This document shows positions 1 through 40,570 of a stretch of DNA of 40,570 bases, one piece after another. The position numbers were made by a program, and so were the translations under genes. This stretch comes from Acidisphaera sp. S103 (GTDB lineage Bacteria; Pseudomonadota; Alphaproteobacteria; Acetobacterales; Acetobacteraceae), in assembly GCF_009765975.1 (NCBI RefSeq), contig NZ_LMUJ01000012.1, positions 1 to 40,570 of the forward strand, in the 5' to 3' direction. Under the pieces are notes generated by a model that was given only the letters and a program-made list of their open reading frames with translations, did no database searches and had not been told where the DNA came from. Each line of letters begins with the position of its first letter. The stretch's first letter is position 1.

Positions 1-96
1 GAACGTGCCCGGTGACAAGTGAGGCCGCCGCCGTGCCGCTGCATCCGGTCCACGTCGCGCCGGCCAAGCCGACACTGGTGGCGCCAAACGCCAGAG
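1..96. repeat. Terminal copy of the 130-bp direct repeat (contig-end overlap)
   Basis: These 96 bases are identical to the last 96 bases of the window (40475-40570) and to 40100-40195. The sequence diverges from the 40100-40195 copy exactly after base 96, and the window also ends exactly at that point. This is what an assembler produces when a circular molecule is broken at the exit of a repeat. I infer that 1-96 and 40475-40570 are the same locus and that the molecule is a circle of about 40,474 bp. A genuine third copy cannot be excluded from the sequence alone. Confidence 0.8.
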
Positions 97-175
97 AGCA
101 AGCGCCCTCCTTAGAGAAATGGTGGACCGATTCGCAACAGGAATCATCAATAATTAGCCGAATTTTAGGCGAAGT

Positions 176-18878: not shown

Positions 18879-20735
18879 TCACTTCGGCGTGAGGGCCGCT
18901 TTATGGGCGCGGTATCGCGCTGCTTGAGCTAGGCTCGCTTCGGAACTCCACCCCCGCACGTCACGCGGCGGCTCTTTGGCTTTTGCGAGTTGGCGCGTAT
19001 TCCATTCCGGCTTTGTCGGAATGTCGATCCCGTCCGGTACTGGGTTCGAACGCAGCCAGTTCGCCAGCTTTATAGCGAGCGGCTTATCCTCATGTCCGAT
19101 CACCCCCCGATGCAGTGTTCCGGCCTTAGCTTCTGTCTGATACGCCCGCCACGCGAAAGCAGCCGGGTTTTCGTCCAGCCGGTTGTCCTTGCCCCATTTC
19201 AGGCGCGGCTTTGCTCTCGCGCGTTTTGTCGTCTGGACTGCCTCTGAAACCGTGGCGCTCAGCAGCTGATCCGGGGAGCCGCCGTCCGTGTTGCTTGTCG
19301 AAATGCGGCCGGTCGTCGAACGGGCGGCCAGCTCCAGTTGGCCCCGTAAATTCAGCCCGAGGCGTGTGCCGATCTCCACCCATGCGGAAGCTCTACTCTC
19401 AGGTGCTATTCCATGAGTATCGAGGACCGAGCAAATATCGGTTATCAAGTCCTTCCCCAAGGCCATATCACTATATAGCGTAAAAACCCCGCTATCGCGA
19501 AATACTTGCATGATGTATTCGGCAAGAGCGGGGCGGATATTAAGCATAAGGCGCGGAAGAACTTGCAAATACAATGGCGCCGCTTGGCTAAAGCTGCCAA
19601 TCAGATGAAAAATTCCTCCTATGCCAGCAACCGTTTCCGCCCAAAGCTCGGGGGCCCGATCGCGATGAAGCTCCGGCATGAAGGGCAGGGAAAGTACCCC
19701 TTCCAGGGTGATCACGATCTCCTGGAAGACGCTTTCTCCTTTCCCGATACTTGCCAGATAGGGGTATGCCTCGCCGAATAATCGAACCGCGCCGGACAGC
19801 CGGCGAACGCCTTCGCGCTTCTTTTCATCAGCCGTCGATTTCGCCAGCGCGCCTCCCACATCCCGTTCGGTCAGGGCGAGCACAACCGTGATTTGATTCC
19901 AATCCGCTGCGGCCTTTCCTCTGGGAAGGGTATCCCGGGCTTCCTCCAGGATTTCGACGGCCCTGCGCCCGGTCTGGATGGCGACGTTTTCTCCTTCGTG
20001 CAGCCAGCTCTTCTGCATTTGAGCACGCAGGCATTCCGCCTGCACACGCCGGGTGCGGGCCCAGGCCAGGCTCCAGTCTAATGTGTCCTCTTCGTGGGGG
20101 CGTAGCAGACCGAGCGCCTGGTCGATGATGGGAAGAGCTTCGTTGGGGCGCCCGTCCTCGTGATAAGTCGCTGCCAGATTACTGAGAATCCGGACGCGCA
20201 ATACGCGGCGCTCCGCGGATGTCTTCACGATCACCGGGCCGAGTAAGGTCAGCGCGAACGTGTAGGCGTCAATGGCTTTTGTTCTGTATTCGGCTCGACC
20301 GTGATCGGGAACGGCGTCCTGTCTTGCAAGCTCGGCATAAGCGGAGCCGAGCGTATCCAACGCGCGCGGAGCATCCGGCCAAACGGTCGCGGGTGTCAGG
20401 TTTTCCCGAATTTCCTCCAGCAGGTTCACGGCGTCCCGGGGCCGGCCCAAACGGCGAAGGATAATGGCGCGATTGATGGTCACCCGCCATTCGAAGGCTG
20501 TTGTGTCCGAGGTTGCCGGATGGACCGCACGCGCTGCCGCGACCGCTGTCCGAAGCTCAAGTTCCGCAGCCTGCAACAGCTCCGCGCGGCCCTCGGCAAT
20601 GCCTTGCCGTAAGTTTTTCAGTCCAGCGTGCAAAGGCAGATCCGCCGCGCGTAGGCGCAGGCGTGCCACAGGCAAGTAGTCGTCGTCACTCGACCGCTGC
20701 GGTTCGGGGATGAGTTGCGAGGCCGCGCCGGACAA
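18879..20735 (-). CDS. TPR-repeat protein
   Basis: A protein of about 618 residues dominated by helical repeats of TPR type. Examples are R-A-I-I-L-R-R-L-G-R-P-R-D-A-V-N-L-L-E-E, L-G-S-A-Y-A-E-L-A-R and L-A-A-T-Y-H-E-D-G-R-P-N-E-A-L-P-I-I. The last 130 residues are basic and unlike TPRs. The longest open frame begins with TTG at 20735, with an in-frame stop just upstream and no ribosome site, so the exact start is uncertain; GTG codons slightly downstream are alternatives. It diverges from the exported protein and caspase-fold genes. TPR proteins commonly act as sensors or scaffolds for caspase-type proteases, but a link here is inference. Confidence 0.7.
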   Translation of the reverse strand: MSGAASQLIPEPQRSSDDDYLPVARLRLRAADLPLHAGLKNLRQGIAEGRAELLQAAELELRTAVAAARAVHPATSDTTAFEWRVTINRAIILRRLGRPRDAVNLLEEIRENLTPATVWPDAPRALDTLGSAYAELARQDAVPDHGRAEYRTKAIDAYTFALTLLGPVIVKTSAERRVLRVRILSNLAATYHEDGRPNEALPIIDQALGLLRPHEEDTLDWSLAWARTRRVQAECLRAQMQKSWLHEGENVAIQTGRRAVEILEEARDTLPRGKAAADWNQITVVLALTERDVGGALAKSTADEKKREGVRRLSGAVRLFGEAYPYLASIGKGESVFQEIVITLEGVLSLPFMPELHRDRAPELWAETVAGIGGIFHLIGSFSQAAPLYLQVLPRLMLNIRPALAEYIMQVFRDSGVFTLYSDMALGKDLITDICSVLDTHGIAPESRASAWVEIGTRLGLNLRGQLELAARSTTGRISTSNTDGGSPDQLLSATVSEAVQTTKRARAKPRLKWGKDNRLDENPAAFAWRAYQTEAKAGTLHRGVIGHEDKPLAIKLANWLRSNPVPDGIDIPTKPEWNTRQLAKAKEPPRDVRGWSSEASLAQAARYRAHKAALTPK

Positions 20736-20846
20736 GGCTTAAATGCCCCGGACCGGCGGCAATAACCCGGTGATCGATAGACGAGAGGGCAAACGCGCCT
20801 GCCGACGCGGGAGCGGCGAGAAGCGGCGAGCCCGATGGAGGATCAA

Positions 20847-21278
20847 ATGCTGCGCTCCCGCACATTGCGGATCGTCATACTCGTTCTTTCCGTCCATGCG
20901 GCCAGTTGGGCCGCCCCCTCTAGTCCCACGCCTTTACTAGACCAGGGGCCGCTCGGCACTCGGCTCCACGCGGTTGCGCCGACGATGCTGGCCAGCGTCG
21001 AGACCCAGCTCCAGGTCCTTCTCGGAAACGGCCAAACGCCACCCTCTGCCAATGACAACAAGTCGTTTACCCCCATCGGCCGCAGCCCGTTGCAGGGATA
21101 TGTGGACAGCACACGGCGGCAGGATACCCCCAAAGGGGATGCCGTATCGCCAAGCCCGGCCGAACGCCGCCAGTTAGAAGTAAACCCGGCCTTTGCCAAG
21201 GCCTTCGCTAAAGACCCACTGGGGGCGCTTCGGCTGCTGCGCCGGGTCAATATCATTTTGCAGGACGCCCAGAACTGA
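20847..21278 (+). CDS. Exported hypothetical protein upstream of the caspase gene
   Basis: A 143-residue protein starting at the ATG at 20847 (GGAGG five bases upstream). The N-terminus M-L-R-S-R-T-L-R-I-V-I-L-V-L-S-V-H-A-A-S-W-A is a Sec signal peptide with cleavage likely after A-S-W-A. The mature part is Pro/Ser-rich with a final helix (L-G-A-L-R-L-L-R-R-V-N-I). No family recognised. It lies 39 bp upstream of the caspase-fold lipoprotein and is probably co-transcribed with it, so a partner or inhibitor role is possible. Confidence 0.6.
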   Translation: MLRSRTLRIVILVLSVHAASWAAPSSPTPLLDQGPLGTRLHAVAPTMLASVETQLQVLLGNGQTPPSANDNKSFTPIGRSPLQGYVDSTRRQDTPKGDAVSPSPAERRQLEVNPAFAKAFAKDPLGALRLLRRVNIILQDAQN

Positions 21279-21317
21279 CCTCACAGGCCACGGAATCTTA
21301 TGAGTAGGAGCGTATGC

Positions 21318-23240
21318 ATGACAAGACTTAGGCATCTTGGCGCCTTCCTCGCTTTGGGTTTGCTCATCGCGCTGGCCTCATGCGTATCCGGAGGCGGGGG
21401 TGCCGGAGGATCTATCGCCGTTCTCGATTCGGTGGAAGCTCCGAAGGTGGCCGCGCTTCGGATCGCGCCGCGCATCGCCCTGGTGATCGGCAACGGCGCC
21501 TATGGCGGTCCCCTGATACCGCTCAAGACCGCTAAGTCGGACGCCCAGCACGTCGCCGCCGTATTGCGGCAGAGCGGGTTTCAGATCGTCGGGGGAGGGG
21601 CCCAGCTGGACGTAAATCGCGAGCGTTTCGATCAGTTGCTCGATCAGACAGATCGTGCGGTTCAGCAAAATCCCGGCGCCGTGGTCGTGGTCTATTTTTC
21701 CGGCCATGGCTATGTTCGCGGCGGCCATAGTTATCTCGCCCCCGTGAATTGGGACCCCGGGAAGGTCGATCCCGAGCGCGCAAACGCAGCCGCCGAGGGC
21801 GGTCTCATCGGAATCGCCCAGAACCTCGCATCATCCGGTGCGGGCTTGACGATCATGTTCGTCGATGCTTGCCGCGACGCCGTAGACGGCCAGGCTGGGG
21901 GCCTGCTCGAAGAGAAAGTCCCGGACAATACCTTCATAGGCTTCGCGGCCCAGTTCGGAGCCGTTGCCCTTGAGCCGGCGGCCGGCGCGGACGGCTATTA
22001 TACGGCTGCCTTGCTAACGATCTGGAACCGCAGGTGGGACCGCATCGAGGATATGCATACCGCCCTAGCGTCGGAGGTCCTGCAAGGCACGCAAGCGCGA
22101 CAGATACCGGTTTATCGGGAAGGGGCGTCGATGCCGGTCGTGCCCGTTCGATTTGGCTCCGCAGACCCTCAAAGTCTGTTCGCCCGTGCTGCCTATGCTC
22201 GAACGACGGCGCAGAACGCGGACGTGCTCGCCGCGCGGTGCGATGCGATGAGCGACATGCGTATTATCGCCGGGTCCGTCCCGGTTCATTCCAGCGGCAA
22301 GCTGCCTATCGTTCCCGGTCCTCGCGGGCAAGCCGTCGATCTGGAAAATGCCCGGAGGGCTTGCAACGATGCGCTCGATGCCGGTGTGCGCACGGCCTCC
22401 GTTCTGAGAGGCGCGGCCATCACCGATATCTTAATCGGCGTTAGCCAGGACCGGGGGGCAAGAGATAGAGCCCTATTGGCGCAGGCCGCAGAGCTTGGCG
22501 ATCCATCCGCCGAGTTTCTTCTCGCAAACCTTGCATCGATCTCCGATCCATCCGCCGTGGACAAGCAGACTCTCGTCTATGACCGATTGGTCCGCGTGGA
22601 AAACGCCAACGTTCCCATGCTCAGCGCGTGGCTCGCGCTTATTCGCCTCAATTTAGGGGAGCAGAACCGGCAGCTTCAGGAATTCACAAATCTGACGATG
22701 CAGCCGGTGCGCGCCATGGAGGTTTTGCGCCGCGAGGCCGAACTCGGCGACCAGACGGCGTTGGTCGAACTGTTTTTTCTTTACGTCGAAAGGCCTGAGT
22801 TCAGGTCCCAGATCGACGGGCCTTGGTTGCGCGGCCAGATCCGCCGGGCGGTGGCGCGGGGCGACGAATCCGTCGGCATGGAACTGGGGGGCCTCACGCC
22901 ATACCAATCGCTCTATCTCATGCTGATATTCGATTATGGCGCCAACGTTCTTAGTCCTCTCAATGCAAATGAATTCCTCGATGTGCTGCTTCCCACCGAA
23001 CCGTTTTTCGGACAACTGAACGCGGCCTTTCACCAGGCTTTCCCGTCACTCAACCTGGTGGGGATACTGGCGTGCCGCGTCGTGATGGGCATCGACGTGA
23101 ACAGGCAACCCGTGCCTGGAGGCGTCGCTAATCCCGAGGCCGGATTGCGCTTTCTGGAATCGGTTGCCGCCTACGGAGGCCCGAACGGACAAGCGGCAGT
23201 CGGGTTCCTTCGGCGAGGCCATAGCTTGAACTGCCTGTAA
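21318..23240 (+). CDS. Caspase-fold (peptidase C14-like) lipoprotein
   Basis: A 640-residue protein from the ATG at 21318 (AGGAG eight bases upstream). A signal peptide ends in the lipobox L-A-S-C, so the protein should be lipid-anchored in the envelope. The caspase-like domain follows: R-I-A-L-V-I-G-N-G-A-Y, V-V-V-V-Y-F-S-G-H-G-Y with the catalytic His at 130, and I-M-F-V-D-A-C-R-D-A with the catalytic Cys at 185. Both catalytic residues are intact. The C-terminal half has Sel1/TPR-like helices (A-A-E-L-G-D-P-S-A-E-F-L-L-A-N, E-A-E-L-G-D-Q-T-A-L-V-E-L-F). It is probably a self-processing or Arg/Lys-specific peptidase; the substrate is unknown. Confidence 0.85.
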   Translation: MTRLRHLGAFLALGLLIALASCVSGGGGAGGSIAVLDSVEAPKVAALRIAPRIALVIGNGAYGGPLIPLKTAKSDAQHVAAVLRQSGFQIVGGGAQLDVNRERFDQLLDQTDRAVQQNPGAVVVVYFSGHGYVRGGHSYLAPVNWDPGKVDPERANAAAEGGLIGIAQNLASSGAGLTIMFVDACRDAVDGQAGGLLEEKVPDNTFIGFAAQFGAVALEPAAGADGYYTAALLTIWNRRWDRIEDMHTALASEVLQGTQARQIPVYREGASMPVVPVRFGSADPQSLFARAAYARTTAQNADVLAARCDAMSDMRIIAGSVPVHSSGKLPIVPGPRGQAVDLENARRACNDALDAGVRTASVLRGAAITDILIGVSQDRGARDRALLAQAAELGDPSAEFLLANLASISDPSAVDKQTLVYDRLVRVENANVPMLSAWLALIRLNLGEQNRQLQEFTNLTMQPVRAMEVLRREAELGDQTALVELFFLYVERPEFRSQIDGPWLRGQIRRAVARGDESVGMELGGLTPYQSLYLMLIFDYGANVLSPLNANEFLDVLLPTEPFFGQLNAAFHQAFPSLNLVGILACRVVMGIDVNRQPVPGGVANPEAGLRFLESVAAYGGPNGQAAVGFLRRGHSLNCL

Positions 23241-31285: not shown

Positions 31286-32419
31286 TCAGGCGGCGTTTGG
31301 AGGAGTCACATCTTCAAAAAGCTGTTCCTCCTCTGGGAAAAGATCGGCGACAGCGCTCAGTGAAAGCTGTTCGCCGAGGAATGTCTTAGCTCTCGCTATT
31401 CGAACAACGATCTTTCCGTCTTCATCAGTCAAGTTCAGCTGCTTCTTGATAACGCTCTCAAAAGATAGCCGTTTTACCTCTTCGGTTTCCTGCCCACTGG
31501 ACCAGGTGACCGCGAGGAGTCTTTTGCCAGGACTACGACGTAATGCCTGACTGAGAATTGCATTAACGTGTTCGTCAGCAAATCCATAGCCGATGACGAG
31601 TAACAACCGGGCTGCAAGCGACTGGCGGCGAAGCTGATACATTAGGAAGAGAAACGGATCTACGTATTGCAGCTTATAAATCACGCCAAATATGATCTGA
31701 CCATCATCAACTTTAATATTTGCAGTGCTGTCACTGAATGTAAGCTTTTCGTCGTCAGCCTTCACCCAATCGACAGATCCGTGTAATTTGTAGAGATAGA
31801 AATTCTTCTCGTCCGGGGCAGATTCCTCAAGAAGTTCATGACTCCACAACCGAGTTACTTTGTCAAAGCCCCGCTCAGGAAGTTCTCTATAGAAAGCGTC
31901 ATAAGTCCTTTCAACGCACATGTCGTAGTTCAACGTGAAAACTCGAAGTGGGAAATTGAGATCTTTTTGAAATCGGAACAGCCCTTCAAAATAGCGGGCG
32001 CTTTCATAATTTCGGATTTCGAGCCAGTCGCGACGTAGTTTTTCAAGGACTTTAGTTCGGAACGGCTGGATATTTTCAAAACTGGGGCCTGCCACTTGTA
32101 GCAAACGAGGGTTCCAGGCACCCACAAAAGGATAGAGCGGGTGATCTTCGCGACGAGCTAACTCGTCAAGAGATTGGACAAGGCGTTCGATATTGTAGTT
32201 GACATCCTTCGCGTAGCGGCCGGCGATCCCTTCGGCGTAAAAAATCGCGCTGCGTACGTAATTGTAAAGATGCTTGAACTCCGCCCATTCATTTTCTAAG
32301 GCGGCTTCGATCTGGCTTACCATATCGGCGGAGTGCGGAATTCCAGCATCCACGCTGGCGCCGGCCCCTAGAAGGACCAGCACTTCATCCTTTTTGAAAG
32401 TGATTGCAGAACTGCTCAT
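31286..32419 (-). CDS. SIR2-like effector of a prokaryotic Argonaute system
   Basis: A 377-residue protein. The NAD-binding start V-L-L-G-A-G-A-S-V-D-A-G-I-P, the catalytic-region F-T-L-N-Y-D, K-L-H-G-S-V-D-W and V-I-G-Y-G-F-A-D-E-H-V-N are the usual SIR2-family landmarks of defence NADases. The ATG at 32419 is preferred because it overlaps the Argonaute stop as ATGA; an ATG three codons earlier is possible. In characterised SIR2-Argonaute systems, target recognition by the Argonaute triggers NAD+ depletion and abortive infection. No APAZ domain is seen, fitting a stand-alone effector of a long Argonaute. Confidence 0.87.
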   Translation of the reverse strand: MSSSAITFKKDEVLVLLGAGASVDAGIPHSADMVSQIEAALENEWAEFKHLYNYVRSAIFYAEGIAGRYAKDVNYNIERLVQSLDELARREDHPLYPFVGAWNPRLLQVAGPSFENIQPFRTKVLEKLRRDWLEIRNYESARYFEGLFRFQKDLNFPLRVFTLNYDMCVERTYDAFYRELPERGFDKVTRLWSHELLEESAPDEKNFYLYKLHGSVDWVKADDEKLTFSDSTANIKVDDGQIIFGVIYKLQYVDPFLFLMYQLRRQSLAARLLLVIGYGFADEHVNAILSQALRRSPGKRLLAVTWSSGQETEEVKRLSFESVIKKQLNLTDEDGKIVVRIARAKTFLGEQLSLSAVADLFPEEEQLFEDVTPPNAA

Positions 32420-34356
32420 AGGAACCATGGAGATACGTTTTCAAAATCCACGTCGGGAAGACCACCTTCCCGAAAGCGGGCATAGTAAGTAGCAATAATT
32501 TTCGCATAATAGACTGAAATTGGCATCGATTTGGCGTTGAACCCACGCCAATTGGCGCCGGCGATGTTCATCGCGTCCTGGAGAACACGCTTTAAATCAG
32601 CCTCCGGAAGAGGTGACTCCGGGAACAGAATTCTCAAATGCACGGGCCGCTCTGGCTGCTTAGGCACCTTCGCGTCGGCGAGTCCGAGGCCCGAGAACCA
32701 CATCAGAAATTCGCGCTTGGACAGCGGCATCACTGTGCCCTCGTATGGCACACGACTGTTGTGATCGAGGGAAAATCCAAAAAACTCATTCTTATCGTTG
32801 AATTTGATAGCTACGAATTCGTGGCTAGGCCCTTCTCCTTTAAGCTCTTCAAGAAGTTCCTTGATCGCGTCGATATCGTGGCGTCGCATGTTGAAGGTGA
32901 CATGCAGGACGAATGAGTCGTATTGGGCCTTGTGGGATTGCAGGACCTGTCGCAAGTTTTGCCGCAAGGCACGCAAATAGTCGCCTTCGTTCGTGGAATC
33001 TCCCAACACCTTGATGGTCTCATAGCCGCCTGCTGAATCCGCGAGAACGGAATAGGCTATGTATCGAGTGATGTGTCTTTCGACGCTTCGATGAGCTTGG
33101 CCAATGCCAACGATAAGACAGCGGTTCGTAGATGGCTTAATGCGCCATGGAACCCCTCCCATTTTTGCGAATAGCGCGAGGCTGATGTTGGAAATCGACC
33201 ATTTCAGCGCGTTGCGATCAAGCGTCTGCTTGCGGTCGACAAACTGACTTGCAAGCCCCTGACTGATGAAAGCGTGCTTAGCCGAAAAATACCCGGCCGT
33301 TTCCTCGTCGCTCGAGTGCTTCGAAAACGGTACGAGAGCCACGGGCAAGATGTGCTCATTCGGAAACTGCCTTTTGAGGGTATCACATGTCGCAAGCAGT
33401 TCCTTGTTCGTGAACCCGGACACCGGGATCCCGGAAACATTCTCGCGTCCGATCGCAACCCCGAACATCGATTGCATTCCGGGAAAGGTCGAATACAGGT
33501 CTCCGCGCAATGCCCGAAAGAGATGCTGAGACTGTTCGCGGTCTTCTGGCTTGAAAACGAATACCAATCGAGTGGCCGCCTCGACAGGCCGATAAGGACC
33601 GATGTCGCGCAAGCCGAAGAACTGATTGCCGGCCTCGCGATCATTTTGAAAAACATAGGTACGGCGCGCCAAGGCGAATGATTTAACAACGGAGAGCCTG
33701 GGTTCGAGCTCTACGATCGATCCATCGTGGAGTGTCAGGCTCGCAATATTGGCGAAGTAGTGCCGAACGAAATCTTCGAGTTTTTGGTTATGGTCGAGAT
33801 AGAAATCTTGGTTGCTCCGGCCATTCTTGTGAGTCAGACTTAGTTCCAGCCGAAGGCGTGCAGTTAAGTCCGTCTCTTTGGGCACGCGCAGCGCGAAGTG
33901 ACAAAGGAATCCGAACTTGCCTTTGGCCTGCAAAGCGTAGGCCCGCAACCACATCACCTCGCGGACGTCGCCATGCTGCGCAAGGACAAACGCCACCTCT
34001 CGTCTAAACCGGTCTTCCTCAAGTTCAACTTTGGCCCGTAAGTCGGAATCCTGAGTGCGGATGACGAGCGCCGTGTGGAGCGCTTCTATAGTCAATCCCT
34101 GATCCACCCAGGCGGCGACGCGGACCTGTTCGAATCCGGCCCGCGGCTGCAACGAGACCTCGTAACGATGCCGCTCGACTGGCCCCTCCGCATATGCCTC
34201 GCAGGACACCGGCAGATTTCGCGTTCCAGGAACCGCTTCTTGCCCAGGTGCAAGGCGCTTCCGATAGGCTATGTAGCTGAAGTCGGCTGCTTTTAAGGCG
34301 AAGAAGCTGAGGGCAATTTTTGATGTTTCGGCCATGGTGGCGAGGGGTTCTTTCAT
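32416..34356 (-). CDS. Long, catalytically inactive prokaryotic Argonaute (long-B type)
   Basis: A 646-residue protein, longer than short pAgos (about 450-500), so it has N-terminal domains in addition to MID and PIWI. The MID region includes H-I-L-P-V-A-L-V-P-F-S-K and Y-F-S-A-K-H-A-F-I-S-Q-G-L-A-S-Q, the usual guide 5'-end pocket segment. In PIWI the position that normally reads G-I-D is L-I-V-G-I-G-Q-A-H, so the first catalytic Asp is absent, and the H-R-D-G region reads V-T-F-N-M-R-R. It should bind guide and target but not cut. Coupling to a SIR2 gene matches long-B Argonaute/SIR2 defence systems. The ATG at 34356 has GGAGG very close; the Met at 34335 is an alternative start. Confidence 0.85.
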   Translation of the reverse strand: MKEPLATMAETSKIALSFFALKAADFSYIAYRKRLAPGQEAVPGTRNLPVSCEAYAEGPVERHRYEVSLQPRAGFEQVRVAAWVDQGLTIEALHTALVIRTQDSDLRAKVELEEDRFRREVAFVLAQHGDVREVMWLRAYALQAKGKFGFLCHFALRVPKETDLTARLRLELSLTHKNGRSNQDFYLDHNQKLEDFVRHYFANIASLTLHDGSIVELEPRLSVVKSFALARRTYVFQNDREAGNQFFGLRDIGPYRPVEAATRLVFVFKPEDREQSQHLFRALRGDLYSTFPGMQSMFGVAIGRENVSGIPVSGFTNKELLATCDTLKRQFPNEHILPVALVPFSKHSSDEETAGYFSAKHAFISQGLASQFVDRKQTLDRNALKWSISNISLALFAKMGGVPWRIKPSTNRCLIVGIGQAHRSVERHITRYIAYSVLADSAGGYETIKVLGDSTNEGDYLRALRQNLRQVLQSHKAQYDSFVLHVTFNMRRHDIDAIKELLEELKGEGPSHEFVAIKFNDKNEFFGFSLDHNSRVPYEGTVMPLSKREFLMWFSGLGLADAKVPKQPERPVHLRILFPESPLPEADLKRVLQDAMNIAGANWRGFNAKSMPISVYYAKIIATYYARFREGGLPDVDFENVSPWFL

Positions 34357-34464: not shown

Positions 34465-34666
34465 TCAGGTCGTTCCCGCTGCCACATGCAGCTCGACGCC
34501 GGCCTGGCGTTGCAGAAAACCGATTATGCCGAACAAGTTCCGGGCCTGCGGATTGCCGCGCGGGCCAAGCATGCGGATGAGGCTTTTCGCCGGCGTGCCG
34601 GTCGCCTCCCCCAGCTTTTCGAAACCGCCGCTTCAGCCCCGTTAGGCGATAAATTTCGGTCATCAC
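34465..34666 (-). pseudogene. Frameshifted HigA-like antitoxin remnant
   Basis: An in-frame segment (about 34632 down to TGA at 34467-34465) reads K-L-G-E-A-T-G-T-P-A-K-S-L-I-R-M-L-G-P-R-G-N-P and ends in a helix followed by G-V-E-L-H-V-A-A. This is the HTH pattern of addiction-module antitoxins of the HigA/antidote type. The natural start (M-M-T-E-I-Y-R-L-T-G at 34666) is in another frame, so the gene is broken. Its toxin partner is missing; the AbiE genes occupy the upstream side. Confidence 0.55.
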
Positions 34667-35619
34667 TTACCGTTCCAGCCCTGTTGGATCATTTTGTCGG
34701 CCAGATTCATGACCGTGCCGAAAGCTGTGCCAAAATCCGGTTTCTCCCCATACACCATTGCAGAAACGAAGTCATCGTAGCGGCGGCGGTGCATGGGATC
34801 GGTGCGCAGGGCCTCGACGGCCTTGCGCGTTTCGCCGGCGATGTCGGCTGCATAGGCTGGATACTGGCTGGCGAATTCCTCTGCGTCGGTTTCGGCGATG
34901 ACGCGGGCCAGGGCGGCGATGTCGGCCGGCTCGACGAGGGCGCGCATCATGTGGAGATCGTAGATGTGCCGTACCAGGGTCGGGTCCGGATCGCGGCTGG
35001 CGCCGGCCATCTCCATGGCGGTACGGCGCGTGAGCGACACCAGTTTCTCCGCCGCCGTCTGGGCGAGGCTGACGCAAGCCAGCTGCGCCACTTCCGGTTG
35101 CCGGTTGGTCGCCTCCGCCACGAACGAGCTGACCTGCAGCATCAGGGCCGGCCGGCGGAGCAGCGCATAGTTGACCTCGACCTTAATCGCCGGGCGTAGC
35201 CCCTCCCCTGCCCCGCCCCCGCTTGGATAAGGCAGATGCCAGACGGCGTAGCGGCCTTCGTCGCGCGCCCAGGCGACCGACTTGTCGGCCAGGTCGAAGG
35301 CAAAGCCGCCGTCCAGCAGCGCGGCCGAGATATCTTTACGCACGCGATCGAGCTGCCGCCGCAGCGCGCTGCGGCTCACCGGCTCTGCGGTTCGCGGCAC
35401 GATCTTGAAATCCACATCCTCCGACATGCGCCGGACGATGCGGTGCGCGCGCGCCAGCGCGGTGCCTCCGCCGAAGACGAGATCGAAGGGAGCGGCATCG
35501 ATCGCAGCCAGGATGCGGATCGCCCGCACGACGAAGAAGTCCTTGGCGACGACCGCCGAGCCCGGCAGGCCGAAGAAATCGACGATCGGCCGGAGATTGC
35601 CGGGCAGCTCATCGCTCAA
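34663..35619 (-). CDS. abiEii: AbiEii-type nucleotidyltransferase toxin
   Basis: A 318-residue protein. F-G-G-G-T-A-L-A-R-A-H and R-M-S-E-D-V-D-F-K-I form the GG...DxD nucleotidyltransferase site, A-I-K-V-E-V-N-Y supplies the next acidic strand, and A-E-K-L-V-S-L-T-R-R is the conserved AbiEii helix. AbiEii toxins, including the MenT family, add nucleotides to tRNA acceptor ends and cause growth arrest on phage infection. It is encoded immediately downstream of its antitoxin, with an 11-bp overlap (35609-35619). All expected residues are present. Confidence 0.88.
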   Translation of the reverse strand: MSDELPGNLRPIVDFFGLPGSAVVAKDFFVVRAIRILAAIDAAPFDLVFGGGTALARAHRIVRRMSEDVDFKIVPRTAEPVSRSALRRQLDRVRKDISAALLDGGFAFDLADKSVAWARDEGRYAVWHLPYPSGGGAGEGLRPAIKVEVNYALLRRPALMLQVSSFVAEATNRQPEVAQLACVSLAQTAAEKLVSLTRRTAMEMAGASRDPDPTLVRHIYDLHMMRALVEPADIAALARVIAETDAEEFASQYPAYAADIAGETRKAVEALRTDPMHRRRYDDFVSAMVYGEKPDFGTAFGTVMNLADKMIQQGWNGK

Positions 35620-36025
35620 CCGTCAACTCCATCGTCTTGTAACGGAGCTTGCGGCTGAACCGGCTGCCGCGCAGCCGCACCCGCGGCGTCATCGGCACCT
35701 GGGTGCTGCGGCCTTCGTTGTAGTCGCGCTCGGCCGTGGTGGGCTCCCAACGGATCTTCAGCTTGTCCAGCACTTCGCGCGAGACCGCGCCGAACCCGTC
35801 GCCGGCGAGCATGGGCTGGTTTGTCAGCGGGGAAATCTCGGCGCGCCCGTAAGCGCCATAGCCGAGGCGGATCAGCTTGCCTTCTTCGGTCAGTTCGCGG
35901 AGCGCGCGCAGCACCTGACGCTCGCCCGCAAGATCACGGAACTCGCGCGTGAGAAAGGCGTCGTCGCAGCGCTTCGCAATCCGCGCCTCGATCCGCTGCC
36001 TCAATGTCATCCGTCGTCCGCTCAT
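35609..36025 (-). CDS. AbiEi-like antitoxin/repressor (DUF6088)
   Basis: A 138-residue protein from the ATG at 36025 (M-S-G-R-R-M-T-L-R-Q-R-I). An N-terminal winged-helix segment (V-L-R-A-L-R-E-L-T-E-E-G-K-L-I-R-L-G-Y-G) is followed by a C-terminal domain, the usual AbiEi layout. In-frame codons upstream to 36079 run through the operator repeats and are unlikely to be used. It should neutralise the toxin and repress its own operon through the repeats at 36043-36077. Confidence 0.8.
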   Translation of the reverse strand: MSGRRMTLRQRIEARIAKRCDDAFLTREFRDLAGERQVLRALRELTEEGKLIRLGYGAYGRAEISPLTNQPMLAGDGFGAVSREVLDKLKIRWEPTTAERDYNEGRSTQVPMTPRVRLRGSRFSRKLRYKTMELTVER

Positions 36026-36042
36026 GGCCAATCCGCCAGTTA

Positions 36043-36077
36043 CAAAAACCTGACTCTCAATATAGCAAAAACCTGAC
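36043..36077 (-). promoter_or_regulatory. Direct-repeat operator of the AbiE pair
   Basis: CAAAAACCTGAC occurs at 36043-36054 and again at 36066-36077, 23 bp apart (about two helical turns), directly upstream of the antitoxin start. An AT-rich stretch with an inverted repeat ATAATAAC/GTTATTAT (36092-36099, 36115-36122) lies behind it as the probable promoter. The arrangement suits an autoregulatory operator. Confidence 0.6.
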
Positions 36078-36278
36078 ATTCATCAAGGAAAATAATAACC
36101 TATTCAATGTATTAGTTATTATGGCGTGCCCTACACACAGGCGGGTCCGCCTCTAGCTCCTTCGCGGGCGCCAATCGAGCCCGCATGAAGGCGATAGATA
36201 GCTGCCCCTCCGGAGCCCCTGGCCAGGTGCGGACTCTTTGCCCAGCACTGCACGTGGGCCGAGATGCTTGGATTTCAG

Positions 36279-37862
36279 TCACTTTTCCTCAAGCCATTTG
36301 TTGAGCATCGCGATGCTGACGGCAAAGTCTCGACCTTCCCCCGGACCGCCTTTGTGAATGATCCCCACAACCCCATCGTCGCCATTGAGTACCGGGCCGC
36401 CCGACATCCCCTGCGTCAGCGTTTGATTTACCTCGATCATCTCGACACCGCTTCTGGCCACCAGCGAGATGACATTGCCTGGGCGGGCGTTCAGCCTGTC
36501 GCCGACATGAAAGCGAGGATAACCCACAGCCGTCAGAGGATCGCCCTGAGAAACGGCTCGCTCCGAGCGGATTAGTTCGAGAAATTCGGTGCTGGAAATA
36601 CTATGCTCAAGCAAGGCGAGATCCCTGTGCTCGCATTTTTTCGATACGCGGGCGACAAATTTATTAGCGGGCTTCGTCGGATGATATACCTCGACTTCGT
36701 CCGTATTTTCCACGCAATGCGCGGCTGTCACCAGGCCCACATCTTTTAGGAAGAAGGCACTTCCCTGTTGCTGCGCCGGGTCATTTTCAACGACCCAGAC
36801 TGATCGCCCACGGATTTCTTGCGGAGTGGGCCGGACTTTCAAAGCACGCTCGGGAAAGCACTTGTTGAATCGTAGCGTTATGCCTCGCACGACCGGGTCC
36901 CATCGACCCTTAATGTGGGTCAGGAACGCGATCTTGCCTTGAAGATGCGCCGCAAGGCTGGATCGGCCGCCATGCGAATCGTGGAATTTTTGCTCCGCTT
37001 CCTTGGCGCCGAGTTTCTCAACCGAATAAAGGGTCGCCCGGATGTTTCTAACATAGCGGCGATCAACGTTGAGCAATTCGTTGACCTTCAGACCGGTCAC
37101 GATCCGCCGTGAATGGCGATCGGCATAGTGCGCTTTCTCTGGATTGATGACGAAGCCGTTCTGCTGAATGACGCCCCGCAGTGCGGGCGTAAGCAGGTCG
37201 GGCAAGAACCGGCCGGACGGCGGCAATGTCGCTTCGAACAGACCCACCGGAGGCTGGTAGCTTGAAAAGGTTATGTCATCGGCGTAGCGCGTGTAGATGC
37301 AGCGTGTGTCCTTTGCGATTGTCATGAGTTGCTTGTCCAATCGGAAGCAGATCATGTTCGAAAGCACCGGGCTGCTCGGTGCGCCTTGAGGCAGCTGACC
37401 GTCATTGCAACAGATACGCGCAATGATGTCTGCCACGCGACTGTCGATGCCAAGCGAAATCAGGAGACCTTGAACACGGTTTTCGGTGATCGTCGGGAAA
37501 AACTCCGCCAGATCGATATTCAGCAGGAAGCGTCGATGCAGGTGTGAGAGCGCATTCGTTTTTACCGATCGATCGGCCACGAAGCCATGGACCGGGTTTC
37601 TCGGTCGGTAAAGTTCATCGAGCTTGTCGGCAAGTTGGCGCTGAAGGAATTTGAGCCGCTGGTCGGGCGCACTGATCAGCCTAACTTTGGTCGAACTTTT
37701 GGCGATCGAGAAATGCCGATACATCCGAGCGCGATAAAACCAGATCTTCTTGAGTTCGGGGCCACTCAAGTTGAGATATGTCAAAAGCGATGTCTCGTCC
37801 GCCAGCGCCTCGGGGATGGTGACGCGAACAGGCGCACCAAAAAACGCTCCAAAAAGCGGCAC
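36279..37862 (-). CDS. Retron reverse transcriptase fused to trypsin-like protease
   Basis: A 527-residue fusion. The RT part (about 1-320) has the retron hallmarks: N-A-L-S-H (NAxxH motif), Q-G-A-P-S-S-P, catalytic Y-A-D-D at 193-196 and V-T-G-L-K-V-N. The C-terminal part (about 350-527) is a chymotrypsin-fold serine protease: T-A-A-H-C with His382, R-D-L-A-L-L with Asp414, and G-M-S-G-G-P with Ser487. All four sets of catalytic residues are present. RT-protease fusions are known among retron families; the protease would be the effector released when phage activity disturbs the RT-msDNA complex. The start is GTG at 37862 with AAAGGAGA ahead of it, lying in the a2 strand of the candidate ncRNA. 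Confidence 0.88.
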   Translation of the reverse strand: MPLFGAFFGAPVRVTIPEALADETSLLTYLNLSGPELKKIWFYRARMYRHFSIAKSSTKVRLISAPDQRLKFLQRQLADKLDELYRPRNPVHGFVADRSVKTNALSHLHRRFLLNIDLAEFFPTITENRVQGLLISLGIDSRVADIIARICCNDGQLPQGAPSSPVLSNMICFRLDKQLMTIAKDTRCIYTRYADDITFSSYQPPVGLFEATLPPSGRFLPDLLTPALRGVIQQNGFVINPEKAHYADRHSRRIVTGLKVNELLNVDRRYVRNIRATLYSVEKLGAKEAEQKFHDSHGGRSSLAAHLQGKIAFLTHIKGRWDPVVRGITLRFNKCFPERALKVRPTPQEIRGRSVWVVENDPAQQQGSAFFLKDVGLVTAAHCVENTDEVEVYHPTKPANKFVARVSKKCEHRDLALLEHSISSTEFLELIRSERAVSQGDPLTAVGYPRFHVGDRLNARPGNVISLVARSGVEMIEVNQTLTQGMSGGPVLNGDDGVVGIIHKGGPGEGRDFAVSIAMLNKWLEEK

Positions 37863-37979
37863 GAGGTCTCCTTTCCAGTCACGCCGCGCGCATCAATCAT
37901 CGTATGGCGCGCCCGATCTGTGCTGACATTAGCTCTTACGCCGCAGGTTACGACAGCGCGTATGCGAAGGGAGACCTCG
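37862..37979 (-). ncRNA. Candidate retron msr-msd RNA with a1/a2 inverted repeats
   Basis: On the minus strand CGAGGTCTCCCTTC (37979-37966, a1) pairs with GAAAGGAGACCTCG (37875-37862, a2) at 13 of 14 positions, enclosing 90 nt directly upstream of the RT start. Retron non-coding RNAs have this form: a1 before msr, a2 after msd. Inside, GCGCGCC...GCGCGC around 37890-37912 can form the msd hairpin. The RNA is short for a retron but complete in layout. The a2 strand holds the RT ribosome site. The branching guanosine cannot be fixed by eye. Confidence 0.65.
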
Positions 37980-38441
37980 CGCAATCGATATAATCACGGT
38001 CAACGCAAAACTCCAGTCCGATAACCGTTGCGTCGGCCGCGATACCGTGACCTATGCCGCGGCCGGCGTCGCGCGGCGAGGACGGAGCCTGTAGCGCCGT
38101 AGCCTTTCATCGCGCCATTGGACGAGCTGGGAGGAATTGCCGACCGTGCTGCGTCCGCTCATCCTTCTCGACTGGTGGGGTTCGGACTGGCCTGCCGCCC
38201 TCGATGCTCTTTACCCGTTCATCGATCGCCCGCCAGGGGCCTCGTCATCAGGCGAACCTGCGCCCGGGCGTGTCACCGCGTCGCTATCGCAAGGGAAAAA
38301 CGGCAGACCGTGTTGGCGCTGACGCGCCTGCCCGCACCGCTCCGCCCTTTTTGCCCTTGGCCATTGCCACTGATGCCCGGTCGCCCTGGGTCGCCATCGA
38401 GGCCCCACTCCGGCGGTCTCCAACCACGAAGGAGAAGCATC
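37980..38441. other. Intergenic region with retron promoter and gene leader
   Basis: The left part should hold the retron promoter (minus strand, AT-rich around 37985-38000). The right part is a long leader for the gene at 38442. A possible 58-residue plus-strand frame from GTG 38146 to 38322 begins MLRPLILLDWWGSDWPAALD and has GGAGG about 10 bases upstream. I cannot decide whether it is translated. Other frames here are GC-driven. Confidence 0.3.
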
Positions 38442-38639
38442 ATGAGCAGCAAACCATCCCACATCGCCTATGTCGTCGTCGATCCCGAGGAAGGCAGCGA
38501 CCGCAAGACGCAGTGGCATCCAGTCGGAGCCATCTGGTCCCACTCGAAAGGCAACGGCTTCGACCTGGTGATCCCGCCCGGCGTCACCTTATCGGGCCGC
38601 ATCGTCTGCACGCCCCGCAAGGAACCAGACGCGGAATAA
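38442..38639 (+). CDS. Small conserved plasmid protein
   Basis: A 65-residue protein with GGAGAA upstream of its ATG. It begins MSSKPSHIAYVVVDPEEG and is beta-rich (W-H-P-V-G-A-I-W-S-H-S, then F-D-L-V-I-P-P-G-V). Small proteins of this type are frequent on alphaproteobacterial plasmids and have no assigned role. It is a single gene between two reverse transcriptase genes, on the opposite strand. Confidence 0.6.
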   Translation: MSSKPSHIAYVVVDPEEGSDRKTQWHPVGAIWSHSKGNGFDLVIPPGVTLSGRIVCTPRKEPDAE

Positions 38640-38646
38640 CGTCCCT

Positions 38647-38676
38647 GCCCCGCCGGAAGATCCGGCGGGGCTCTTT
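38647..38676 (+). terminator. Terminator after the 65-residue gene
   Basis: GCCCCGCCGGA (38647-38657) and TCCGGCGGGGC (38661-38671) form a perfect 11-bp stem with an AGA loop, followed by TCTTT. Confidence 0.8.
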
Positions 38677-38739
38677 CCGACGGCTGGCCTAACCAGGCCT
38701 ATCGATCCGACGATCATCGCACCGCCCGGTTAAAGCGGC

Positions 38740-40020
38740 TTAGGCCGTCTCCGCCGATATTTTTGGCCAGGCAAAAGGAGTGCGCTCTTGCGCCCCGAGT
38801 AATTCGACGCCCAGCATCGGCGCGGCCCGATCCGGATCGGCGCCTTTCCGGGCATCCGAGTAGAAGCCAAGATATTCGCGTATGAGCTGCCCGACCTCCG
38901 CATCGAGATTTCGAAAGCAGCGTTCATCATTGCAAAAGCGGTAATGCTTGCCCCATCCCTGGATGACGCCGTCAACCCGTCTCAATGTGCCGAGTACCGC
39001 GGATGTCTTCGGCAAAGGCTGGCCATTGCGATAGGCAATCAGCGCCTTCCGCGAGCTTGCAAAGGCTTCGCGAAGGCCTGTGACGAATTTATTCCGAGCC
39101 TTTTGGGCGGGCCGTATCAAGCCGTTATTGATTTCGATACCCAAAAACTCGAAGCCCTTCGATACCGGAATGGCGTGCGGCGAGGTTTTTTCGGCCGAGA
39201 GCTGCATCCCAAGATTGCCGAGAATGCTTTTTGCCAGCCGTAGATTTTTCATCACGCTCGCCGGCGACGGTCCAAGCACGATGAAATCATCGATATAGCG
39301 GCGGCACCAACAGCCCCCGTCATTCATGCGCCGGTCGAAATCGGCCAGGATGATGTTCCCCAGCATCGGCGACAGCGCACTTCCTTGCGCGACACCGATA
39401 TCCTCGGTTGGAAAGCGGTCGGCGAGATTGCGCAGGGCCGCCAGGTTCGAAAGCTCGACGGTGATCGCCCGGCGAAAAAGCCCCATGAACTCGGAATCAT
39501 CAACCGCACCTGCAATCAGGTCAGTGACCGTGGTCTTATGGATGCGCGTAAAAAAGGCGCTGATATCGGCGCAAGCGATATAGCTGCCACCGGCGCCAAT
39601 CGCATCGAGGACCGACTTGATCGCAGCGGGAACGGCCGCCAGTTCATCATTCTCGCCGCGCTTGATGCCGCCGAAGCTGTGGGGGTTGCGGAAAAAGGGC
39701 TGCAGCGCCTCGATGTCCTGCATCGTTTCGAGAATTGCGCGCTGAACGATGCGGCTCTCGACGCCGGCGACGACAATCGGACGAATGTCTTTCTTGTTGG
39801 CTTTGGGAATGGCTACGCCGCGGGCCGGCAGAAACTCGAAGCTGTTATGGACGAGACGCGCCTGAAGGGAGCGAAGTTTCCCGTACGCGTCTTCGTCGAA
39901 CTGACGGATTTCTTTCTGAACGTCCATCGACTTCGAGGCAAAGCCGTTCGAGCGCACGTTGCGCCAGGCCGCTTCAAGCGACCGCAGGCTACGAACTTTT
40001 TTTATAAGTACCGTCGTCAA
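38740..40020 (-). CDS. Unclassified reverse transcriptase (UG/DRT- or group II-like)
   Basis: A protein of 426 residues if it starts at TTG 40020, which follows GGAAGA and fits the typical N-terminus (L-I-K-K-V-R-S-L-R-S-L-E-A-A-W). The upstream open frame runs through the 130-bp repeat and is probably not coding. RT motifs are present in order: R-P-I-V-V-A-G-V-E-S-R-I-V-Q-R, C-A-D-I-S-A-F-F, Q-G-S-A-L-S-P, catalytic Y-I-D-D-F (Tyr 242) and F-E-F-L-G-I-E-I. The C-terminus has G-W-G-K-H-Y-R-F-C-N-D, like the thumb/X region of group II intron RTs, but no endonuclease and no intron RNA. It most resembles stand-alone defence-type RTs. A non-coding, repeat-bearing upstream region is adjacent. Confidence 0.75.
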   Translation of the reverse strand: MTTVLIKKVRSLRSLEAAWRNVRSNGFASKSMDVQKEIRQFDEDAYGKLRSLQARLVHNSFEFLPARGVAIPKANKKDIRPIVVAGVESRIVQRAILETMQDIEALQPFFRNPHSFGGIKRGENDELAAVPAAIKSVLDAIGAGGSYIACADISAFFTRIHKTTVTDLIAGAVDDSEFMGLFRRAITVELSNLAALRNLADRFPTEDIGVAQGSALSPMLGNIILADFDRRMNDGGCWCRRYIDDFIVLGPSPASVMKNLRLAKSILGNLGMQLSAEKTSPHAIPVSKGFEFLGIEINNGLIRPAQKARNKFVTGLREAFASSRKALIAYRNGQPLPKTSAVLGTLRRVDGVIQGWGKHYRFCNDERCFRNLDAEVGQLIREYLGFYSDARKGADPDRAAPMLGVELLGAQERTPFAWPKISAETA

Positions 40021-40265
40021 AGCGTCTTCCGGGTCCTGTGGCTCACCCCACCCGCCGACGCTGTGCTGTTCCCTGCGGAGGTGCCTAATGGTCCAATCCG
40101 AACGTGCCCGGTGACAAGTGAGGCCGCCGCCGTGCCGCTGCATCCGGTCCACGTCGCGCCGGCCAAGCCGACACTGGTGGCGCCAAACGCCAGAGCCAGT
40201 CCCGTCAGAAGCGCCCGAAGCGAGCGCCGCCGATTGGGGCGTGCCGAGTTGGCACGTTTTTGCAT
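40017..40265 (-). CDS. Possible 82-residue exported protein upstream of the RT
   Basis: The frame starts at ATG 40265 and ends with TGA at 40019-40017, overlapping the proposed TTG start of the RT as TTGA. Its N-terminus (R-R-R-S-L-R-A-L-L-T-G-L-A-L-A-F-G-A) resembles a Sec signal. About half of it lies in the 130-bp repeat. The overlap favours a real gene; the weak ribosome site, and the same frame continuing without a proper start in the second repeat copy, argue against it. It could equally be non-coding RNA sequence. Confidence 0.3.
   Translation of the reverse strand: MQKRANSARPNRRRSLRALLTGLALAFGATSVGLAGATWTGCSGTAAASLVTGHVRIGPLGTSAGNSTASAGGVSHRTRKTL
40066..40195. repeat. 130-bp direct repeat, copy 1
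   Basis: Identical to 40441-40570 at 129 of 130 positions; the only difference is T at 40089 against C at 40464. It begins CTGTTCCCTGCGGAGG and ends AACGCCAGAG. It starts 46 bp upstream of the proposed RT start. The two copies are 375 bp apart, start to start. Confidence 0.95.
40240..40262 (+). terminator. Hairpin with T-run between the two repeat copies
   Basis: CGTGCC (40240-40245) and GGCACG (40251-40256) form a stem with a GAGTT loop, followed by TTTTT. As a terminator it would stop plus-strand transcription. On the minus strand it would be an internal hairpin of any RT-linked RNA. Confidence 0.55.
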
Positions 40266-40440
40266 GTCCTGCGCATCAATCGCCTCCGGCGCTCAGGCTA
40301 GACTTTTTGCCTCGCGTCGCAAGCGTCCGGGCGCAAGCCTGGCCGCCCCCGCCCCGTCCGATAACAAAATGCGACTAGCCACCCAACAGGAACCTGAAAA
40401 GCTAAAGGTTATGGCTCGGCGTTCGTCGGACGGGTCAGGT

Positions 40441-40570
40441 CTGTTCCCTGCGGAGGTGCCTAACGGTCCAATCCGAACGTGCCCGGTGACAAGTGAGGCC
40501 GCCGCCGTGCCGCTGCATCCGGTCCACGTCGCGCCGGCCAAGCCGACACTGGTGGCGCCAAACGCCAGAG
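40441..40570. repeat. 130-bp direct repeat, copy 2 (runs into the window end)
   Basis: Second copy of the repeat at 40066-40195, ending exactly at the last base of the window. Its last 96 bases equal bases 1-96. In a circular reading it continues at base 97 with sequence different from that after copy 1. The 245 bp between the copies (40196-40440) hold the hairpin at 40240 and no convincing gene. Confidence 0.95.

Follow-up and report, generated by a model that had tools for sequence, protein, structure and literature searches.

Direct repeats upstream of a G2L4-class reverse transcriptase appear to divide a circularly permuted small gene

The module and its reverse transcriptase

The window analysed here, 40,570 bp, is the entire contig NZ_LMUJ01000012.1 (C46 in our numbering) of Acidisphaera sp. 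S103, and our subject is the module at its end, in which a reverse transcriptase (RT) gene is preceded by two direct repeats (DR1 and DR2) of 130 bp that are identical at 129 of 130 positions and spaced 375 bp apart. A first-pass annotation of this DNA had remarked on the RT, with its YIDDF motif and its lack of a maturase endonuclease, and on a repeat pair enclosing a hairpin; both descriptions hold at the coordinates given below. The main point, which that annotation missed, is that the repeats appear to divide a permuted gene. The parts of the module are as follows, ORF standing for open reading frame and P1 and P2 for two putative RNA helices.

97-137, minus strand: promoter-like site before DR1 (TTGCGA 132-137, TCTAAG 110-115), lying across the probable plasmid junction; from a family-wide score, weak in the window locus alone
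40441-40570, minus strand: DR1, the RT-distal repeat, lying at the end of the contig; the first 96 nt are found again at window positions 1-96 (sequence comparison)
40293-40440, minus strand: putative C-terminal part of the permuted ORF, ending in a TGA stop at 40293-40295 (joined frame open), containing the 5' halves of P1 (40426-40435) and P2 (40383-40394; covariation)
40295-40322, minus strand: internal promoter-like pair (TTGCGA .. TAGCCT) that overlaps the C-terminal part at its end; hexamers picked by eye, consensus score across the family higher than in shuffles
40274-40287, minus strand: Shine-Dalgarno-like GGAGG (40283-40287) with an ATG (40274-40276) whose frame is offset by one from that of the ORF, an offset that is conserved
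40196-40265, minus strand: putative N-terminal part in frame B, with ATG at 40265, basic then hydrophobic (ORF analysis)
40240-40256, minus strand: hairpin CGTGCCAACTCGGCACG (CGTGCC..GGCACG), helix 4, directly after a CAAAAAC motif (40256-40262)
40066-40195, minus strand: DR2, the RT-proximal repeat and putative middle part of the permuted ORF (sequence comparison)
40021-40065, minus strand: leader from DR2 to the RT, with the 3' halves of P1 (40050-40058) and P2 (40031-40041; covariation, permutation test)
38740-40020, minus strand: G2L4-class RT, 426 aa, TTG start at 40020 (ORF, profile match, predicted structure)

The RT start was placed near 40020 (TTG) by alignment with relatives; a longer ORF, 38740-40152 (470 aa, minus strand, with YIDDF), extends into the proximal repeat. 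RVT_1 is its sole Pfam match, and the endonuclease domain is absent. The first-pass annotation left this enzyme unclassified; by profile match and predicted structure it is a group II intron-like 4 (G2L4) RT. A profile built from 46 relatives matched the G2L4 structure (PDB 9d5x/9d4s) with 485 bits and an E value of 2e-144, the next group reaching 147 bits, and the window RT alone matched the same structure with an E value of 1e-62. When an AlphaFold2 model of the window RT (predicted local distance difference test, pLDDT, 93.7) was searched with Foldseek, the top four hits were G2L4 chains (9d4s, E 7e-33). The YIDD active site is present, its Y and I at least 90% conserved and both D invariant across 41 aligned sequences. 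The RT3a plug (D182, R190, R191) is partly kept in an alignment by eye: the acidic residue and R190 are retained, the insertion is 2 residues shorter and R191 is replaced. Among the relatives, cited here by our locus numbers, L096 (Stutzerimonas) has an RT that matches the crystallised G2L4 enzyme over its whole length with 782 bits, a very close relative, and its locus has the repeat module with both copies identical.

Other assignments were tried and rejected. Every NCBIfam match of the window RT falls under its cut-off, including that to the group II RT/maturase model (143 bits, cut-off 300), and the best PADLOC models are generic RT (138 bits) and UG17 (106 bits). A place in the UG/DRT families does not follow from scores that lie far under the NCBIfam cut-offs or under a 439-bit UG17-model match, and a retron-type RT is likewise rejected (St85 model 40 bits, cut-off 235). 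The first-pass annotation had named placement among ordinary group II intron enzymes, with intron RNA around the RT, as grounds for abandoning its proposal. Rfam found nothing in 37800-40570 and nothing in the modules of 8 relatives, the sole intron match (L050) lying elsewhere in that locus; an ordinary group II intron is rejected, since intron RNA was not found at the module.

The repeat pair in relatives

We assembled 78 distinct loci, made up of 73 from a genome scan, 3 from a viral scan, a P. aeruginosa plasmid record (L040) and the window, and found the repeat pair in 45. Repeat length is 109-146 nt and pair spacing 334-485 nt (345-382 in 41 of the 45); the spacer between the copies measures 214-254 nt in 42, and the proximal copy ends 43-86 nt ahead of the start of the RT match. 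These two-copy loci span Alpha-, Beta- and Gammaproteobacteria, Acidobacteria, a Bdellovibrionales bacterium and a Desulfovibrio, and their RTs are diverged, down to 30-35% identity. Two entries, L011 and L012, were treated as duplicates of L071 and L113 and left out of all 45-locus counts. The pair is partly visible or lies across a gap in L072, L079 and L082, no repeat was recognised in L075 and L117, L076 has a gap, and a further eleven loci are not judgeable (contigs start inside or after the module). L046, whose RT is more distant, also carries two repeats but was not counted, neither its pairing nor its frame contrast being clear. L045, which did not belong to the discovery set, combines identical repeats with a joined frame that is open and genomic contexts that are closed; its P1 is strong and its P2 score weak.

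Within a locus the two copies have a median identity of 0.992, reaching at least 0.97 in 40 of the 45 and being identical in 21, yet between loci (13 chosen pairs) DR identity is 0.65-0.96, from which it follows that both copies change together. Chance is excluded because the same pair recurs upstream of homologous RTs. The 129/130 identity in the window had invited the explanation of a recently duplicated promoter region beside an ordinary RT, but the same pair in 45 loci of such diverged RTs refutes it. We give this explanation practically no weight: the pair is old and has been kept near-identical within each locus. A unit resembling a diversity-generating retroelement, with DR1 as the template repeat and DR2 as the target repeat rewritten by the RT, would agree with maintained identity and with a repeat that lies within a small ORF adjoining the RT; however, differences between DR1 and DR2 are of all types and an adenine-specific pattern is absent. 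We rejected such an element on these mixed substitutions and regard the reading as very improbable.

A permuted reading frame

At most loci the spacer contains the beginning of an ORF, which encodes first a basic stretch and then a hydrophobic segment and reads on through DR2. The hydrophobic segment is found in 35 of 37 loci, a count that left out L040, L051, L052, L054, L058, L085, L113 and L122. The ORF continues into the C-terminal part when the DR is joined to the sequence that follows DR1, the order expected if the unit were concatenated or circularised. Over a test stretch of 50 nt before DR2, the DR and 100 nt after DR1, this joined frame is fully open in 44 of 45 loci; in the 45th, L122, a stop is present in the DR2 copy alone, and use of the DR1 copy brings the count to 45/45. 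The corresponding controls are open in 10/45 (DR2 genomic context), 21/45 (DR1 genomic context), 19/45 and 10/45 (junction shifted by 1 and by 2 bases) and 13/45 (antisense). With the frame set independently by CAAAAACG, the joined sequence is open in 33/33, as against 0 and 1 for the other two frames. For the window, whose unit is 375, the joined frame stops 145 nt after the DR and the predicted product is ~115 aa with a hydrophobic N-terminus. Such a pattern suggests that a small gene is stored circularly permuted between DR1 and DR2, an arrangement that could hide small genes from annotation.

Across 12 close pairs, the ratio of nonsynonymous to synonymous polymorphism (pN/pS) is 0.50 in the N-terminal part, 0.85 in the DR and 0.76 in the C-terminal part, with other frames at 0.98-1.35; nine loci with irregular or uncertain frames (L051, L052, L054, L058, L085, L087, L089, L113, L114) were left out of this calculation.

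Of the 45 loci, 36 allowed the start to be judged (9 did not), and in 35 of these the start codon with its Shine-Dalgarno sequence lies in a different frame from the ORF, such that a -1 shift at CAAAAAC would lead into it. The helix 4 hairpin directly after this motif has 99.1% of its cells paired across 19 aligned loci, with both-side change in one pair alone. We propose a programmed -1 frameshift at CAAAAAC as a candidate reading of this arrangement; C AAA AAC differs from the textbook frameshift heptamer. An internal ATG (ATGCAAAAACG) offers an alternative start in many loci and is missing in several, and in L101, L112, L116, L118 and L124 the start is seemingly in frame and the CAAAAAC motif absent (by eye). 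Two Pseudomonas loci, L095 and L092, carry the ORF start region with its CAAAAACG-like motif twice in the spacer, ~105 nt apart in L092.

Flanking helices and promoter-like sites

In P1, bases just past DR1 can pair with bases just past DR2; in P2, another segment of the spacer can pair with the adjoining segment of the leader, and the two helices cross in the manner of a pseudoknot. Since the two places pair, one RNA should hold both. Long-window duplex energies (own leader -43.5, other leaders -37.7, own leader best in 8/45) were too noisy, and the helices were therefore tested by local pairing and by alignment counts. Mean pairing for P1 was 27.4 with the own leader and 19.3 with those of other loci (maximum of 2000 permutations, 21.9); for P2 the values were 26.9 and 19.8 (maximum 22.3), and two control regions remained at background. 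The own leader ranked among the top three partners in 28 of 45 loci for P1 and 22 of 45 for P2.

For the alignment counts, 19 of the 45 loci were used, and a second set of 14 was aligned and left uncounted. Over four helices, 94.5% of cells are paired, and both-side changes occur in 14 of 32 pairs, 12 of them within P1 and P2, amounting to 25 cells as against 4.1 in shuffles. Sliding the helix partners lowers pairing to 30-43%, a control that is biased in favour of structure because the structure was drawn from the same sequences. In these alignments the sequences flanking the repeats covary as RNA. The comparison of upstream DNA across homologues that the first-pass annotation had proposed, with its two copies in 45/78 loci and covariation in the 19 aligned, thus bears out its suggestion that the repeats bound an RNA element and supports their association with the RT: homologues keep the pair, its spacing and its position, and the flanks covary.

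Sigma-70-like sites scoring at least 9/12 precede DR1 in 12 of 44 loci (L113, where upstream sequence is absent, was left out) and are found in 0/44 for each of two control regions; the promoter-like -10 ends a median 13 nt upstream of DR1. Inside the spacer, promoter-like sites are strong in 8/44. Together with the helices, this internal site can be read in another way, namely that the upstream region is an attenuator or frameshift control of the RT gene and encodes two separate small proteins, one per repeat copy. P1 and P2 could control RT translation, and the reading frame is open on each copy's own side. Yet a promoter-like site that ends so close to DR1 leaves little room for a ribosome site, and neither the identity of the copies nor the N- and C-terminal frame shared in 33/33 would be explained; we consider such regulation, and two such proteins, quite unlikely.

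Proposed mechanism

We consider it fairly probable that the module is a two-part system, a G2L4 RT with an upstream template RNA, in which copying by the RT and a jump from DR1 to DR2 rebuild the permuted gene. The template RNA would start probably near the 5' end of DR1 and run through the spacer and DR2 into the leader, a long A-B-A' layout with an A of ~130 nt, and the crossing helices P1 and P2 would hold the ends of the two repeats side by side. The RT would copy the RNA toward its 5' end, through DR1, whereupon the nascent complementary DNA (cDNA), being complementary to the DR, could re-anneal at DR2 and extension resume, yielding a concatemeric or circular cDNA with a unit of ~350-380 nt. 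It is in this cDNA, rather than in the chromosome, that the internal promoter, Shine-Dalgarno sequence, start, DR-coded middle and C-terminal part would be contiguous, and for that reason a protein with a hydrophobic N-terminal segment could be made, probably through a -1 frameshift at CAAAAAC or from the internal ATG, of ~115 aa in the window. Such a model predicts junction reads at the DR in natural hosts. Strong strand-annealing activity, as described for G2L4 RT in the available text of PMC12337344, fits the template jump.

The anatomy of the module, its conservation, the covariation, the open joined frame and the RT class are observed; cDNA synthesis, strand transfer, translation, trigger and effect, antiphage activity included, we infer. 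The role is most likely that of a conditional effector, perhaps in antiphage growth arrest as in DRT2; given the hydrophobic segment and the likeness to DRT2, our guess would be a membrane-acting growth-arrest effector. We also lean, if only slightly, towards the more general proposal that G2L4 RTs are gene-assembling machines, for which an effector gene is stored permuted between ~130-nt repeats and restored by RNA-templated strand transfer, with the -1 frameshift as a second lock and annealing and end joining as a side effect.

Several observations weigh against a permuted gene rebuilt by the RT. Chimeras of different loci give an open joined frame in 52%. The C-terminal end is uneven: the stop falls 101-171 nt after the DR in 32/45 loci, later in the spacer in 3 and past the next start in 4, and 6 loci have no stop at all. 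These endless frames, with units that are a multiple of three, are those of L051, L052 (one of two open frames), L054, L056, L059 and L063. pN/pS for the DR and C-terminal part is just mildly below 1, and an excess of third-position change was not found at codon positions in 76 moderately similar pairs; overlapping RNA constraint could blur both tests. The piece from DR1 into the C-terminal part folds poorly (pLDDT 53.6), giving no confident structure, and is without a match in a plasmid collection. In three Methylobacterium loci (L051, L054, L058) one DR copy is a base longer than the other, so that the reading frame is set by whichever copy is used. The own leader scores highest, ties included, in just 11/45 loci for P1 and 10/45 for P2, as is expected if relatives share much sequence. 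Among the matches listed for 109 neighbouring ORFs at 36 loci, the relatives show no consistent defence context. Finally, the published work, in its available text, assigns G2L4 RT a role in double-strand break repair via microhomology end joining (MMEJ; PMC12337344, PMC13015716), an activity published for the P. aeruginosa enzyme (PMC12337344).

A further adverse point is that 16 loci carry a single DR directly before the leader (by eye; L055, L064, L102, L111 and L067 among them), which could reflect either short-read assembly collapse or deletion between the repeats. A 14-base spacer piece sought in ten single-DR or no-DR (L075) genomes gave one match, with surroundings unlike the module, so that collapse is neither proven nor excluded. 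Tandem units upstream in L067 looked unrelated to the module. Single-DR loci look exactly like the deletion product of an alternative in which restoration takes place in DNA: recombination or annealing between DR1 and DR2 would excise a circle bearing the intact gene, which the RT would repair or copy, in keeping with its published description as an MMEJ enzyme. Against this stand the helices between the sequences following DR1 and DR2, which have no evident role in DNA recombination, the retention of both copies in 45 loci, and the origin of the single-DR loci in draft assemblies or metagenome-assembled genomes, which are able to collapse direct repeats. We judge restoration in DNA to be unlikely and continue to prefer RNA-templated rebuilding by the RT.

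Plasmid and genomic neighbourhood

The first 96 bases of the contig are identical to its last 96, all within the repeat, and in the 8.37-Mb genome of the same strain the repeat occurs in three places, every one on the window contig. Given this end identity, the confinement of the repeat to the contig, and the presence of plasmid-type genes (ParA/ParB-like, RepC, relaxase), the most likely reading of the contig is a circular 40,474-bp RepC plasmid that assembly broke at the repeat. Once the circle is closed, the DNA upstream of DR1 is window position 97 onward on the minus strand; this stretch resembles, by eye, the DNA upstream of DR1 in the relative L050, which supports the closure.

Around the RT lies a defence island with a retron type XI RT-protease, AbiE, SIR2/short Argonaute and an MmeI-like enzyme (PADLOC, Pfam), including these genes:

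36279-37862, minus strand: retron type XI RT-trypsin-like protease fusion (PADLOC, 608 bits), adjoining the G2L4 RT
34663-36079, after the SIR2/Argonaute pair: AbiE pair (PADLOC)
31286-34356, minus strand: SIR2-like protein and short Argonaute pair (PADLOC Aga_SIR2 387 bits, pAgo_II 578 bits)

The first-pass placement of the RT in a defence island is therefore sound. Its proposal of a defence unit stays a candidate reading: it fits the island in the window and finds no consistent counterpart in the scanned neighbours of relatives. That scan took in 109 of the 156 nearest ORFs, at 36 of 39 loci, and among the matches listed no Pfam family had more than 3 matches and no PADLOC family more than 2; with no recurrent neighbour family, the module looks self-contained.

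Elsewhere in the window, a caspase-domain protein (21300-23240) lies near a TPR protein (18879-20735) with a weak TPR-S match, and the two (18879-23240) are possibly a sensor-protease pair. On contig C56 of the same genome (L048, 10424-11717), six tandem 234-nt units, 61-72% alike to a reference unit, lie ~2 kb from a different RT. Genes for tRNA were seen within a few kb of the module in 3 of 8 loci scanned (L040, L063, L097).

Comparison with known systems

The RT class is already known; the new part is the upstream repeat-bounded permuted module. We found no paper on this module in the literature searched, most subscription journals and a bioRxiv collection being outside its reach. With the G2L4 RTs of PDB 9d5x/9d4s the window enzyme shares a full-length profile match and YIDD, and no intron RNA was found at its module. 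It differs in what is proposed for it, the published role being break repair by MMEJ, and a term search of the available text of PMC12337344 and PMC13015716 found 'direct repeat' in neither. If our model is true, the module would be a natural template for G2L4 RTs and their published repair activity would be open to a different reading.

Retroelements with long terminal repeats (LTRs) carry direct repeats at both RNA ends and undergo strand transfer at the R region. Direct repeats at the RNA ends could allow strand transfer here too, and the mechanism, if true, would be close to that of retroviruses; unlike in LTR retroelements, the RT lies outside the repeats and the repeat occurs at this place alone in its own genome.

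DRT10 (UG17) uses an A-B-A' template with realignment at the repeated part, and in the available text of PMC12632851 A is 4 nt, the unit 9 nt and the partner a SLATT protein. The layout proposed for our module is the same, but A is ~130 nt rather than 4 nt and the unit far from 9 nt, and the UG17 model gives 106 bits on the window RT against 439 for a full-length match to that model elsewhere. Neither a SLATT family nor a recurrent partner gene was present among the matches listed, the best 25 of 117 PADLOC and 25 of 85 Pfam families, for the 109 neighbour ORFs at 36 loci.

The closest parallel is with DRT2 (UG2), in which, according to the available text of PMC12039810 and PMC11100668, an upstream pseudoknotted RNA is copied with jumping to make a gene absent from the chromosome. 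On our side both features, the pseudoknotted upstream RNA and the de novo gene, are read from sequence, and an endless joined frame is shared by 6 of 45 relatives. Another mark of DRT2 is the concatemeric cDNA that appears after phage infection. The differences are several: RT class (the Drt2 model scores 36.7 bits on the window RT, cut-off 390), a unit of 120 nt in DRT2 against ~350-380 nt here, ACA motifs against ~130-nt repeats, a joined frame that, for the window and 34 other loci, ends within the next spacer, and a promoter that DRT2 rebuilds across the junction, whereas the promoter-like site here is intact inside the unit. The module as we propose it works like DRT2 in mechanism but lies outside DRT2 by RT family, by unit length and by the want of an endless ORF in the window; if true, it would add a second example, from a different RT class, of protein-coding genes existing as cDNA only.

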